Assembly (NCBI RefSeq): GCF_001412595.2
Contig: NZ_CP012640.2
Coordinates: forward strand, 4,836,001-4,900,000
Length of the DNA: 64,000 nucleotides
Reading direction: 5' to 3'
From: Massilia sp. WG5
Lineage (GTDB): Bacteria; Pseudomonadota; Gammaproteobacteria; Burkholderiales; Burkholderiaceae_D
Below the pieces are notes generated by a model, which was not told where the DNA came from, searched no databases, and was given only the letters and a program-made list of their open reading frames with translations. This document shows, in pieces, positions 11,836 to 15,769 of this stretch. Each line of letters opens with the position of its first letter. Positions within the stretch are counted from its first letter, which is position 1. Both the position numbers and the translations under genes were made by a program.

Positions 11836-12111
11836 ATGCCCATCAGAAGGATGCCGGAGGGTGCCGTCTATGACCCCAACCGGGTTCTCGACGCCATCAT
11901 CAACAAACTCATGCTGAAAAACGACGCCGCCCTGTCGCGCGTGCTCGAAGTCGCGCCGCCGGTGATCAGCAAGATCCGCCACAACACGCTGCCGATCGGC
12001 GCCACCATCCTGCTGCGCATGCATGAGGTATCGGATTTCAGCATCCGCGAATTGCGGGCGCTGATGGTGCGGACCGATGCGCGGGAGGATGCGAGGGCCT
12101 TGACGGCCTGA
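11836..12111 (+). CDS. Small helix-turn-helix (XRE-like) protein
   Basis: 91 residues. The middle (DAALSRVLEVAPPVISKIRH, about 36-55) reads as a Cro/XRE-type helix-turn-helix, followed by helix RMHEVSDFSIRELRALM. GGAAG lies ahead of the ATG. It probably binds DNA; the target is unknown. It is convergent with the first AYCAGPE-repeat gene (12 bp between stops), which makes that pair a possible but unproven target. Confidence 0.7.
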   Translation: MPIRRMPEGAVYDPNRVLDAIINKLMLKNDAALSRVLEVAPPVISKIRHNTLPIGATILLRMHEVSDFSIRELRALMVRTDAREDARALTA

Positions 12112-12123
12112 GCTTGCCGCAGC

Positions 12124-12738
12124 TTAACAAGCCCTGACGGCGGCTTCCGGCGCGGCGCAGGACGGGGTCCGGAGCTCGATCGGCGCCTCGGGGCCGGCGC
12201 AATAGGCCGTGCGATTCTTGATGGCGGCCTTGGCGCCGCCGCAAAAGGCGGCCTGGGCCTTGACGGCCGCCTCGGGGCCGGCGCAATAGGCTGCCGGGGT
12301 CGCGCGCTCGGCCGCGCAATCGACGCAGGCTTCGCCGAAGCTTGCTTCGTACAGGATACGCGTGCGTTCGCCGCTGTCGAGGCGGACCTGCGCATCCTGT
12401 TCGCCGTCGCCCATGCCGACGTAGGGATAGTGATGCAGGAAATAGCCGAAAGCCCGCTCGCAGTCCTTGGCGTATTTCATCGTATCGAGAATGTGGTAAT
12501 GCCAGAAGGTATCCACGTCGACCTGTGGCGCCAGGGTCTCGTTCGGGTACATCTTCATCAGGCACAGGAAGCGCCGGTATTCCAGTTCGACCGCATCCGC
12601 TTTTTGCTGGCTCCACCCTTCGCCGGACTCTACATGCATCAGCTTGTGCTTGATCCGGTCGAGATTCAGTTCGGTTTCTGTTATTTCTTTCAGCAAGCCT
12701 CTCATTTCTTGCGAATCCTCATCCATTTCATGATTCAT
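12124..12738 (-). CDS. GRDP-like protein with C-terminal Cys repeats (AYCAGPE), copy 1
   Basis: 204 residues from the ATG at 12738 (a GTG two codons earlier is possible). The N-terminal about 140 residues resemble the glycine-rich-domain-containing protein (PF07173) region: VDVDTFWHYHILDT and DCERAFGYFLHHYPYVG, with conserved His/Asp/Cys. The C-terminal about 60 residues are four Cys-centred units of 14 residues (AYCAGPE, AFCGGAK, AYCAGPE, PSCAAPE), ending in a C-terminal Cys. The leader-plus-repeat form recalls multi-core peptide precursors, but no maturation enzyme is adjacent. It is paralogous to the next gene upstream. Function unknown. Confidence 0.75.
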   Translation of the reverse strand: MNHEMDEDSQEMRGLLKEITETELNLDRIKHKLMHVESGEGWSQQKADAVELEYRRFLCLMKMYPNETLAPQVDVDTFWHYHILDTMKYAKDCERAFGYFLHHYPYVGMGDGEQDAQVRLDSGERTRILYEASFGEACVDCAAERATPAAYCAGPEAAVKAQAAFCGGAKAAIKNRTAYCAGPEAPIELRTPSCAAPEAAVRAC

Positions 12739-12840
12739 TTGCACTGCTCATTGTTGTTGAGCAGCAAGTAAAACATTGACATAAAGCAATATAGGTGAAT
12801 CAAGAGCAGACACGCACCTAGTCGAATAAATAGTTGTAAT

Positions 12841-12868
12841 AAAAGTCCGTCCCGGGACGGGGACGGAC
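12841..12868 (-). terminator. Rho-independent terminator of AYCAGPE copy 2
   Basis: On the plus strand GTCCGTCCC (12845-12853) pairs with GGGACGGAC (12860-12868). Read on the minus strand the hairpin is followed by TTTTATT. It lies 33 bp past the stop of copy 2, so copies 1 and 2 are probably separate transcripts and copy 1 should have its own promoter between 12745 and 12840. Confidence 0.75.
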
Positions 12869-12901
12869 CATGGGAAGGCTTGCCGCCGTGACGGCGCGTG
12901 C

Positions 12902-13642
12902 TCAGGCTGCCACAGCCTTGTCGCTGGCCAGGCCGTTGCGGTAGTCCCCATTCCGGCTTTCCGGGCCGGCGCAGTAGGCGGTGTTGGCGCTGATGCTGCC
13001 GGCACGGCCATGGACCTTGTTTTCCGGACCGGCGCAGTAGGCGACCTTGGCGCTGATGGTGCCGGCACGGGCGTAGGCCGGGCTCTCCGGACCGGCGCAG
13101 TAGGCGGTATTGGCGCTGAGGCCGCCGGCACGGGCGTAGAACTTGCTCTCAGGACCGGCACAATAAGCCATGTTGGGGCTGACAATGCCGGCACGGGCGA
13201 AGATCTTGCCCTCGGGGCCGGCGCAGTAGGCCACCTGGCCGGCAACTGCAGCTACCGTGACCGGGTAGGATTCGCCGAAGGTGTCCTCGTAAAGCGTGCG
13301 CATGCGCTCGCCGCTGTCGATCCGGAACTGTTCATCGTTCGCCCCGCGCAGGCCGACATAGGGGTAGTGATGCAGGAAGTAGCCGAACAGGCGGTGGCAA
13401 TCCTCCGCGTACTTCACGGTATCGAGGATATGGTAGTGCCAGAAAGTGTCGACGTCTTCCAGCGGGGCGGTATTTTCGTTCGGCTAGAGTTTCATCAGGC
13501 AAAGGAAGCGGCGGTACTCCTTTTCGACCAGGTCCGCCTTTCCTTCACTCCAGCCTTCGCCGGACTCGACGTGCATCAGTTTCGTTTTGATGGGATCAAG
13601 ATCAAGCTCGAATACTGCATTAAACAAGTCGTTCGCATTCAT
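12902..13642 (-). pseudogene. GRDP-like protein with AYCAGPE repeats, copy 2, interrupted by an amber codon
   Basis: Read from the ATG at 13642, the frame gives an N-terminus homologous to copy 1 (KLMHVESGEGW, EYRRFLCLMK), then a TAG at 13484-13486 exactly where copy 1 has Tyr in the motif K-[ML]-Y-PNE. After the TAG the frame continues unbroken (PNENTAP, VDTFWHYHILDT) to 12902. The C-terminal part has five AYCAGPE motifs spaced 21 residues apart. A GTG at 13417 could start a 171-residue remainder with the repeats. It could be a recent pseudogene, a sequencing error (TAC/TAT to TAG), or a truncated protein still in use. Confidence 0.75.
12955..13245 (-). repeat. 63-bp tandem repeat within AYCAGPE copy 2
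   Basis: The block CCGGCGCAGTAGGC and near variants start at 12966, 13029, 13092, 13155 and 13218, exactly 63 bp apart. Each unit encodes 21 residues: AYCAGPE, then a variable triplet, then an [YF]-A-R-A-G-like segment and S-A-N. Variation is mostly between the motifs, which suggests the Cys motif is under selection. Confidence 0.9.
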
Positions 13643-13918
13643 GGTAGTCCTCATCATGTAATAGTTTTGAACTGCTTCCCTAGTATTTGCATTCGGACAA
13701 CTCGTGAGTCATGTGCGGCCACATCCGATTACCCGCTCTTCAGTGCTGGCGATATACCTCATTTCTCGGTTTTCCCTACAGGAGGTCGAGAATTTTTCGT
13801 TGATGTACATTGCCTGTACTCAATGTAGTTTAGGCATTGCGAGGAGGAGTTGCGATTGCTCAAAAAGTCGGAGCATATTGCAAAAAACGACACAAACTCT
13901 GCTTGCTAGACTTGATTT
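13643..13918. other. Gap with no gene recognised
   Basis: About 276 bp between the kinase stop and the start of AYCAGPE copy 2. It is AT-richer than its surroundings. No tRNA, convincing ORF or strong hairpin was seen. It should hold the promoter for copy 2. Confidence 0.5.
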
Positions 13919-15769
13919 CTAGATAACAGCAGAATTGGATGGATGGTGGTGCTGGATGCCTGGCGGGTTTTCTGGCGTCGTATAGATCGGCGCCGACACC
14001 GTGACCTTGGTGCCGCCTTCCGGTTCGTTGACCACGGTGCAGGTGCCGCCGAGGATGATGATGCGTTCCTCGATGCCGACCAGGCCGAACGAGCCGTGTT
14101 TGTTGCGTCCGCCTGGAGGCAGGCCGCAGCCATTGTCCTTGACGGTGAGCGTCAGCCAGCCGTCGTTGAGCTGCAGATGGACCACCGCCCTGGTCGCGTC
14201 GGCATGGCGGACGATATTGGTCAGCGATTCCTGGAGGATGCGGAAGAAGGCAGTCGCAGTGCTGTCGGATACCGAGATATCGCCATGGTCGTCGTGTACC
14301 TCGCACTGGATGCCCGTGCGCTGCTGGAACTGGTTGACCTGCCATTCGACCGCGGCGGACAGGCCCAGGTCGAGCACGGTCGGGCGCAGGTCGTTGATGA
14401 TCTGGCGTACGCTTTTTATCGTGGCATCGATTTGCTGCAGGGTGGCCTGGACGCGTTTGTGCAGGTGGCCGTGGGCGGGCCTGGTGCGCCCTGCAAGCAG
14501 TTCGGCGTCGATACGCAGCGCCAGCAGGCTCTGCCCAAGGTCGTCGTGGATCTCGCGCGCGATCCGTTTGCGTTCCAGTTCCTTGATCTGGTACGCATGG
14601 TCGGCCAGGCGGCGCAGCTTCTGGTGCGACAGCTGCAGCTTGTGCTGGCTTTCGCGCAGCTCGGTGGTCATTTCCTGGGCCAGCGCGAGCGCGGCGCGGC
14701 GGGACGACGTCAACATGTGCAGCAGGGCGTACAGCATCATCGAGCCGAGAAAGCCGAAGGCCAGCATCAGTCTCGGATAGTAGCGGTCGCCGCCCGTGTA
14801 GAGCTCGTCCTTGGGGACGCTGAATACCGTTTTCCAGGGACGGCCGTTGAAATCGAGCGGCAGGGTCGTGGTAAATATCTCGCTGCCCGCGGCGAGCGGT
14901 GGCGCAGGAATGCCGGCGCTGCCCTGGCTATCGAACAGGGTCACTCTCTTGGGCGGGGCCGGGCGTCCCGTGCCGTCGAAGCGTGGACCCATGTCGTACA
15001 GCGTCATGCGCATGCGCGACACCGGCAGCTCGTCCAGGACGCCGTGGAGCAGCCTCGGCAGGCTGAAGGCGATGCCCAGGGAGCCGACGTAGGCGGCGCG
15101 GCGCTGTTCGACCGTCTCGACTGGCGCACCTTTCCGATAGATCGGCATGCGCATTCCCAAATGCGCGTTGTTCGGCCCGGACAGCGCAGGAATCCGTGAG
15201 CCGGAAGCGGACAAGGATCCATCGTCGCGCGCAGCGGCCAACTGCTTCGTGAAATAGGGATTCGCCATCAGGTCGGTGCCGTAATGGCCGGGACTGGACA
15301 AGTCGGGCTCGATGTACGCGACGATCAGGTAGGACGGGCGCTCGCCCGGCGGCGAGATGTTGATCGGGGTTTGCGGACCAACATAGTCCAGCAACTCCTT
15401 TCGCAGCTTGTCGACAAAGACCTTGCTGTTGCTGTTCGGGACATACAGCGCCAGATTGATGGAATCGACTGCGGGATAGTTCTTGCTCAACTCCACGCCA
15501 CTTACGAAGCCGTGAAGGTGGTCATGGGTAATTTCTGCGCTCTGCAACAAACTGCCGGTCGCCCGCAACAGGTCGGTATACGATTTGATCCGCACGCCGA
15601 TGACGCTTTGTGCATATTTGGCGTGATTGAGGAAGCGTTCCTGCGCATCCGACTCGATCGTGCGCATCGTGTTCACATAGAGCAGGCCGCCCACCATGGC
15701 TGACGCCAGTGTGCCTGTCCAGAATGAAATCCGGGTAACCGAAAAAGCGTCTTTCAGTACCGTCACCAT
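13919..15769 (-). CDS. CHASE-domain sensor histidine kinase (NarL-type partner expected)
   Basis: 616 residues: transmembrane helix near 17-30, periplasmic CHASE domain (about 50-290), second transmembrane helix near 340, then HisKA_3 dimerisation domain with KRIAREIHDDLGQSL (phospho-His in the IHDD motif, about 410) and a HATPase domain (RILQESLTNIVRHADA, KDNGCGLPP, GLVGIEERI). This type normally pairs with a NarL/LuxR response regulator, but none is beside it, so it is an orphan here. The ligand sensed by the CHASE domain is unknown. Confidence 0.9.
   Translation of the reverse strand: MVTVLKDAFSVTRISFWTGTLASAMVGGLLYVNTMRTIESDAQERFLNHAKYAQSVIGVRIKSYTDLLRATGSLLQSAEITHDHLHGFVSGVELSKNYPAVDSINLALYVPNSNSKVFVDKLRKELLDYVGPQTPINISPPGERPSYLIVAYIEPDLSSPGHYGTDLMANPYFTKQLAAARDDGSLSASGSRIPALSGPNNAHLGMRMPIYRKGAPVETVEQRRAAYVGSLGIAFSLPRLLHGVLDELPVSRMRMTLYDMGPRFDGTGRPAPPKRVTLFDSQGSAGIPAPPLAAGSEIFTTTLPLDFNGRPWKTVFSVPKDELYTGGDRYYPRLMLAFGFLGSMMLYALLHMLTSSRRAALALAQEMTTELRESQHKLQLSHQKLRRLADHAYQIKELERKRIAREIHDDLGQSLLALRIDAELLAGRTRPAHGHLHKRVQATLQQIDATIKSVRQIINDLRPTVLDLGLSAAVEWQVNQFQQRTGIQCEVHDDHGDISVSDSTATAFFRILQESLTNIVRHADATRAVVHLQLNDGWLTLTVKDNGCGLPPGGRNKHGSFGLVGIEERIIILGGTCTVVNEPEGGTKVTVSAPIYTTPENPPGIQHHHPSNSAVI

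Follow-up and report, generated by a model that had tools for sequence, protein, structure and literature searches.

A GRDP-like repeat protein and its CHASE sensor partner in Massilia: a candidate multi-copy signal module

Introduction

What does a protein do that carries a GRDP-like domain followed by a tail of near-identical repeats, and with which partner does it work? The question is raised by two adjacent genes of Massilia sp. WG5, located in a window of 64,000 nucleotides, the whole stretch of DNA analysed here (C1:4836001-4900000 within the 6.2-Mb genome). Copy 1 (12124-12744, minus strand) is an open frame of 206 amino acids, with the leader at approximately residues 1-140 and then a Cys-repeat tail. 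Copy 2 (12902-13642, minus strand) is a paralogue adjoining the gene for a sensor histidine kinase of 616 amino acids (13919-15769, minus strand), with CHASE at residues 79-260, HisKA_3 at 399-466 and HATPase_c at 506-595. A preliminary description had remarked that no modifying enzyme lies beside the two genes, which stands, and had missed the neighbouring CHASE histidine kinase, which is the real partner. A CHASE sensor is the conserved partner of the repeat protein, and in tandem paralogues the repeats diversify together with the CHASE half, the kinase and leader being near-identical. For this arrangement a signalling role is the best explanation we can offer, its chances being about even.

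A CHASE sensor accompanies the repeat protein

One search returned 2689 homologues at E ≤ 0.001, with 120 of them listed. The family sample consisted of 77 loci from GTDB contigs, drawn from the best 80 of 140 related places, in which close relatives are over-represented. These loci gave 102 frames, of which the 100 without N were analysed, the two N-containing frames of locus L006 being dropped from the motif, residue-identity, codon and whole-set distance counts. In a count restricted to loci of at least 5 kb, and leaving out L001-L005 and L153, a CHASE gene was found within 1.5 kb of 106/111 repeat-bearing GRDP frames, versus 4/24 repeat-free frames. The five repeat-bearing exceptions are at L021 and L049, the two kinase-free loci, both of which begin at a contig end, at L062 (a second copy, with the CHASE gene 2.1 kb away), and at L140 and L141. 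The repeat-free frames with a CHASE neighbour are two fragmentary frames of L006 and one degenerate frame of L062, all beside intact modules, together with L136, a single GRDP copy that looks decayed.

The gene order DnaJ-glnS-CHASE kinase-GRDP-HTH-epimerase is near-fixed across the 77 loci (DnaJ in 71, glnS in 73, kinase in 75, HTH in 66 and epimerase in 73), and in at least seven loci the kinase gene is present two or three times, in tandem with GRDP genes. The conserved neighbours comprise DnaJ, glnS, the CHASE kinase, HTH-like and epimerase-like genes, a ferredoxin-type reductase and MFS. The 77 loci share descent, so what counts as independent evidence for the linkage is the three arrangements and two output types. 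At L132-L135, from other genera, the repeat GRDP gene is divergent beside a longer related kinase, without glnS neighbours; a domain scan of the L132 kinase gave CHASE, PAS, HisKA_3 and HATPase. A plasmid of Cupriavidus pinatubonensis has a GRDP gene with AYCAR repeats, and the reading frame of a CHASE-GAF-GGDEF-EAL protein stops 70 nt upstream of it. Long frames positive for the CHASE hidden Markov model also lie directly upstream of a repeat GRDP gene in Variovorax (L162; 72 nt from the end of the open reading frame to the ATG) and upstream of one in Cupriavidus P-10 (L164; frame edges 75 nt apart). Pfam was run on the C. pinatubonensis protein only; the Variovorax sensor, read by eye, apparently has a GGDEF-EAL output. 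The sensor output thus differs: Cupriavidus has GGDEF-EAL, and the Massilia-Janthinobacterium group, among others, has a histidine kinase. Both kinases with PAS and kinases lacking it occur.

The adjacency of candidate precursor and sensor is a trait of signal-receptor pairs. No response regulator was noticed by eye near the kinase in the window or at L132-L135, no systematic search having been made. The module is present in 61/62 sampled genomes of the genus, and in the remaining one (G098) a contig end falls inside the kinase gene. At family level, matches to the leader profile (E ≤ 0.001) were found in 45/145 genomes, some of them weak and from distant relatives.

Repeats and CHASE co-diversify in tandem paralogues

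Between tandem units (seven pairs from five genomes), nucleotide identity is 0.91-1.00 in the kinase bins and 0.82-1.00 over most of the leader; the CHASE, intergenic and repeat stretches of the same pairs are mostly at 0.5-0.8. Addition of L167 and L170 gave a set of 16 paralogues from 7 genomes, with 11 within-genome pairs. In 11/11 pairs the CHASE difference (mean 0.42) exceeds those of the kinase (0.04) and the leader (0.07).

Each paralogue was matched to its nearest sequence from a different genome, and the aromatic residue and five-residue core of the repeats were compared, leaving out the duplicate genomes L168, L169 and L171-L175. The nearest CHASE domain predicts the aromatic in 16/16 paralogues and the core in 15/16, the corresponding values out of 16 being 7.5 and 6.8 for the kinase and 6.4 and 6.2 for the leader. 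When repeats were permuted within genomes, the CHASE values were reached in 18 (aromatic) and 3 (core) of 3000 permutations. The two-gene unit has CHASE at one end and the repeats at the other, and linkage alone would therefore favour the leader.

Whole-set distance and nearest-neighbour tests used 77 pairs, after removal of 17/98 GRDPs that were second behind the same kinase and of 4 of the remaining 81 pairs that lacked glnS. In the nearest-neighbour contests CHASE beats the kinase 12 to 3 (p = 0.035). For the kinase of the window itself, the nearest CHASE domain shares the aromatic and not the full core. Co-diversification of sensor domain and candidate signal, a further trait of signal-receptor pairs, is accordingly found in the tandem paralogues, and is weaker or favours the leader in the whole-set tests.

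The repeat tail is under strong selection

The tails consist of 2-19 units of Ala-[Phe/Tyr/Trp]-[Cys/Ser] (100 proteins, 77 loci). Units are all-Cys in 54/100 proteins and all-Ser in 46/100, with no mixed protein, and a single aromatic residue is used throughout in 82/100; the claim that the Cys motif is kept between copies does not hold for the family. Within the Cys class, 473/475 tail Cys are preceded by an aromatic, counted by residue and not by motif. In close relatives the Cys are mostly 10-25 residues apart, and both the number and the spacing of repeats vary. Identity at unit positions +1 to +3 is 0.87-0.94 of unit pairs within a protein versus 0.17-0.36 between loci, and at the variable positions of the units it is 0.87-1.00 within proteins and 0.17-0.50 between them. 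What varies from protein to protein is the sequence around the aromatic-Cys/Ser pair; the pair itself is constant.

Synonymous codon mismatch between units of one protein reaches 0.95 of saturation overall, the expectation being based on codon usage in the genes of that locus. Most units within a protein are therefore not recent copies, and their near-identity as protein in the face of near-saturated synonymous sites indicates strong selection on the repeats. Core Ser codons are TCN in 452/452 cases (approximately 233 expected), as if the site were unable to pass through other residues. Of the proteins typed as Ser class, 46/48 have an RPx[LFI] motif after the last repeat, as have 3/52 of those typed as Cys class. 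Stand-alone relatives have C-terminal ends resembling this motif (QRPKL, KRPSF and RRPSF).

An alignment of 46 leader sequences contains 39 invariant columns, including FWHYHILDT, YxxDC and FGxFxHHxPYxG. An AlphaFold2 model of one Ser-type member, built from a 30-sequence alignment, has a mean predicted local distance difference test score (pLDDT) of 61 and a predicted template modelling score of 0.54. In the model the leader is helical (pLDDT about 63-90), a C-terminal helix spans residues 221-229, and the tail between (133-220), predicted with low confidence in this single model, is presumably disordered. Sequence search gave no convincing solved structural relative of the leader. A leader followed by repeated conserved cores is what multi-core precursors of ribosomally synthesized and post-translationally modified peptides (RiPPs) have. 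The earlier suggestion of a multi-core precursor survives, given the conserved leader, the tail that is disordered in one model, and repeats that are uniform within proteins and different between them.

The locus in Massilia sp. WG5

Copy 1 matches PF07173 (GRDP-like) with E 2.5e-5 and 25.4 bits, above the gathering threshold of 22.7, in a partial match limited to profile positions 100-143. Elsewhere in the family L044 scores 23.1 bits, and L132, L088, L109 and L119 fall below the cut-off. The repeat tail of copy 1 (12148-12291, minus strand; coordinates derived from residue numbers) has four repeats at 14-residue spacing, of which two read AYCAGPE and two are degenerate (AFCGGAK and PSCAAPE). 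The tail of copy 2 (12960-13235, minus strand; approximate coordinates) has five AYCAGPE repeats, whose 21-residue spacing was computed on P0033, a near-identical database relative (243/246 positions identical to copy 2) without a stop at codon 53. Copy 2 itself is broken in this assembly, because codon 53 is an in-frame TAG. The preliminary description was thus right in seeing an adjacent GRDP-like pair, since copy 1 exceeds the PF07173 cut-off and copy 2 reads as its paralogue, and had overlooked the interruption of the latter; its repeat counts and spacings agree with ours, and AYCAGPE is found in only 2/4 of the copy 1 repeats. A search of the genome revealed no further GRDP copy, the other three matches at E ≤ 10 all having E > 0.09 and one of them lying inside copy 2. 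With the canonical precursor interrupted and only the degenerate copy open, the putative circuit may be weakened in this strain. In other genomes, too, there are reported stops inside GRDP matches (G1260:C46:208353-208910, G1227:C1:283332-283886 and G106:C1:5101396-5101944), so loss of a single copy may recur.

The intergenic region between the sensor gene and copy 2 (13643-13918, minus strand) contains TGCAATAT, TACATTGA and ACTAGGGA, which are found again, similarly spaced from the GRDP gene, in 17, 20 and 16 of 98 upstream regions, respectively, with 0-0.2 per set in a shuffled control. Shared descent of related loci can explain part of this recurrence. The small HTH gene reported next door is present at 11836-12111 (plus strand); it is HTH-like by eye and has no Pfam match. 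It was found by tblastn in 66/77 loci with the glnS context and not in the relocated loci L132-L135, and looks like a syntenic neighbour outside the module.

Proposed mechanism and alternatives

In the mechanism that we propose, the first gene would encode a membrane receptor whose CHASE domain, from knowledge of the family, we take to be extracytoplasmic. The second would encode a multi-copy signal precursor, in which a helical GRDP-like leader of about 130 amino acids precedes a disordered array of 2-19 near-identical units. The tail would be cut into units, the aromatic-Cys/Ser pair perhaps being modified, either by the leader domain itself or by an enzyme whose gene lies elsewhere, and the product would reach the periplasm, where the matching CHASE domain would bind it and switch a kinase or cyclic di-GMP output. 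From the sequence evidence, we give an even chance to the idea that the repeats supply, in many copies, the cores of a signal which the CHASE receptor next door detects, in an agr-like private circuit. The broader proposal is that of a Gram-negative pheromone class not described before, in which each domain-led precursor would release an Ala-aromatic-(Cys/Ser) core in many copies, each adjacent CHASE receptor would read its own variant only with kinase or cyclic di-GMP output, and tandem duplication and gene conversion would create new private specificities; its probability we put somewhat short of one half. There is a precedent for a peptide as CHASE ligand in the CHASE protein DhkA, which recognises the small peptide SDF-2 according to an excerpt of PMC1863423.

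Several results weigh against this proposal. In whole-set distances, with glnS taken into account, the partial correlation of the repeats is higher with the leader (r 0.31) than with CHASE (0.22), the regression weights are 0.51 for glnS, 0.28 for the leader and 0.16 for CHASE, and in the nearest-neighbour contests CHASE stands at a non-significant 11 to 4 against the leader (p = 0.12) and 6 to 2 against glnS (p = 0.29). Among the paralogues, the linker predicts the core in as many as 11.5 of 16 (and the aromatic in 14), and the N-terminal segment of the histidine kinase (residues 1-59) predicts the core (15/16) and the aromatic (16/16) as well as CHASE does. The paralogue result comes from 16 members in 7 Massilia-group genomes, two of which (L009 and L012) seem to be close relatives. 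The mosaic could also arise without any binding, if gene conversion homogenised kinase and leader and missed ends that had diverged before. Synonymous saturation is uneven, with ratios of 0.07 for Ser at +2, 0.55 for Ser at +1 and 0.68 for Ala at +1. At L140 a repeat GRDP gene has no detected CHASE neighbour, and at L141 the neighbour is a kinase remnant only. The genes have no recognised protease, exporter or modifying enzyme next to them, with part of the open reading frames domain-scanned and L132-L135 read by eye; the modifying enzyme that a multi-core RiPP precursor has in its cluster is not among the neighbours seen. No secretion signal is evident; the hydropathy scan, which gave no segment over threshold, is uninformative because the kinase positive control also gave none.

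Some of these observations suit an alternative in which an intact cytoplasmic GRDP-repeat protein regulates the CHASE receptor, with a leader that binds the receptor, or the signalling core of the receptor, and with disordered repeats that serve as multivalent docking sites. Such a protein would need neither the secretion signal that was not seen nor the adjacent maturase or exporter that was not recognised. It would agree with the modelled helical leader, disordered tail and short C-terminal helix, RPx[LFI] after the last repeat (46/48 Ser-class proteins) could be its docking end, and the N-terminal/first transmembrane segment of the kinase tracks the repeats as well as CHASE does. However, the output has been swapped between kinase and GGDEF-EAL with the repeat partner kept, and in the paralogue set the repeats fail to follow the kinase domain (6.8/16). 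We regard this alternative as unlikely, with a minor though real share of the probability.

More doubtful still is a RiPP-type precursor whose product has another role (metallophore, toxin or cofactor), with the CHASE sensor regulating its production. In TIGR04222 proteins, a family linked in part to MNIO enzymes according to an excerpt of PMC12452194, a related WHxH domain precedes Cys/Gly tails, and stand-alone relatives with short Cys tails head methyltransferase/TauD/UvrA-like operons in three genomes. However, the repeat class has no recognised enzymes of this kind next to it; G115 and G058 carry the repeat module without an MNIO gene, and the single MNIO gene of the window's genome is about 74 kb away, beside a small Cys-containing open reading frame whose product resembles, by eye, a bufferin precursor. 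On the model of plant BURP domains, the GRDP-like domain might itself be an enzyme, with invariant WHYH, HH, D and C, acting in cis on the aromatic-Cys/Ser pairs to make a small CHASE ligand; the 39 invariant leader columns (WHYHILDT, DC and HH among them) and the constancy of the pair amid surroundings that vary between proteins would fit, and we consider the idea improbable. The metal- or thiol-binding tail of the preliminary description has a very small probability: Cys residues mostly 10-25 apart in close relatives and short Cys-rich tails in distant ones would suit it, but the en bloc replacement of Cys by Ser in 46/100 proteins, none of them mixed, means that Cys is not conserved and largely refutes it, and the linkage of repeats to CHASE also speaks against it. 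Neutral low-complexity sequence spread by slippage, in keeping with the variable repeat number and spacing, has next to no probability and is refuted, like the unconserved repeats that the preliminary description had named as fatal to its reading, by residues conserved at near-saturated synonymous sites and by TCN codons at 452/452 core Ser (about 233 expected).

Distant relatives of the leader domain

Judging from its distant relatives, the GRDP-like domain may serve as a leader beyond this module. Several stand-alone versions end in short Cys tails and others do not. In three distant genomes, a GRDP-like protein is encoded in an operon-like run with an S-adenosylmethionine (SAM) methyltransferase, a TauD dioxygenase and a UvrA-like ATPase (L126:742-7966, L157:217-7183 and L158:4944-10390, the last on an Azospirillum ramasamyi plasmid). 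The GRDP-like proteins of these runs have the tails CKSTDCR, NPCAATRCR or GCKSQNCP, and the runs have the look of a biosynthetic cluster not yet described, whose precursor would be GRDP-led. At L092, L094, L097, L098 and L119, a domain related to the leader stands ahead of Gly/Cys-rich tails, and L092 and L097 pass the TIGR04222 cut-off; the related WHxH domain matches the leader profile with E 4e-10 to 2e-8. Some TIGR04222 proteins are proposed MNIO substrates, as stated in the excerpt of PMC12452194.

The stand-alone GRDP proteins of L144 and L147 end in RC..HACH.P.SCACR.PGACK. A pentapeptide-repeat gene lies near a GRDP-like gene in two unrelated genomes (L122:6793-8139, directly adjacent, and L157:3869-7183), and on a Halomonas plasmid (L163:1987-4387) a GRDP-like gene lies near a LuxR regulator and an acyl-homoserine-lactone synthase. 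The single MNIO gene of the window's genome (G000:C1:4923212-4924003, L153) adjoins a small Cys-containing open reading frame with a signal-like start, and by eye this looks like a bufferin locus.

Significance and comparison with known systems

Bacteria have numerous orphan CHASE receptors, with ligands known in few cases, according to the excerpt of PMC1863423 (2007). The module offers a genetically encoded candidate ligand for CHASE receptors. Single genomes can contain several natural receptor-ligand variants next to each other (L013 and L170 have three pairs each), and specificity is therefore directly testable. If the repeats are indeed read by the neighbouring receptor, a Gram-negative peptide communication system would be present in 61/62 sampled genomes of the genus, and the GRDP-like domain would gain a role as precursor leader; the literature matches listed for the domain included no study of a bacterial GRDP protein.

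In agr/com-type systems, a peptide pheromone precursor and a membrane histidine kinase are encoded adjacently, and the sensor domain and signal diversify together as the rest stays constant; yeast alpha-factor provides an example of a multi-copy precursor. The module resembles the agr/com type in the adjacency of its candidate precursor and membrane receptor, and in the co-diversification of sensor domain and putative signal with constant kinase and common parts. It differs in being Gram-negative, in its CHASE receptor, 130-amino-acid leader and 2-19 cores, in an output that can be GGDEF-EAL, and in that no export or processing gene was recognised, and no response regulator noticed, beside it.

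Like TIGR04222 proteins and MNIO-modified RiPPs, the module has a related WHxH domain ahead of a Cys-rich tail (PMC12452194, excerpt); unlike them, it has no recognised MNIO gene in its locus and exists in Ser versions. It does not fall among the TIGR04222/MNIO substrates, the two window proteins giving no NCBIfam match to TIGR04222 and MNIO genes numbering none in G115 and G058 and one in the window's genome, G018, G062 and G016. With plant GRDP proteins (PF07173/DUF1399) it shares the domain, copy 1 scoring above the Pfam cut-off, whereas it matches only part of the profile and is set apart by its aromatic-Cys/Ser tails and CHASE partner. BURP-domain burpitide precursors, a self-modifying type marked by copper-dependent cross-linking, likewise fuse a folded domain to aromatic cores, and serve here as no more than a working analogy. 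CHASE is also coupled to histidine kinase or cyclase outputs in Dictyostelium DhkA and the cytokinin receptors of plants (PMC1863423, excerpt); that excerpt mentions no adjacent ligand gene for them, whereas the CHASE sensor of the module has a constant repeat-protein neighbour.
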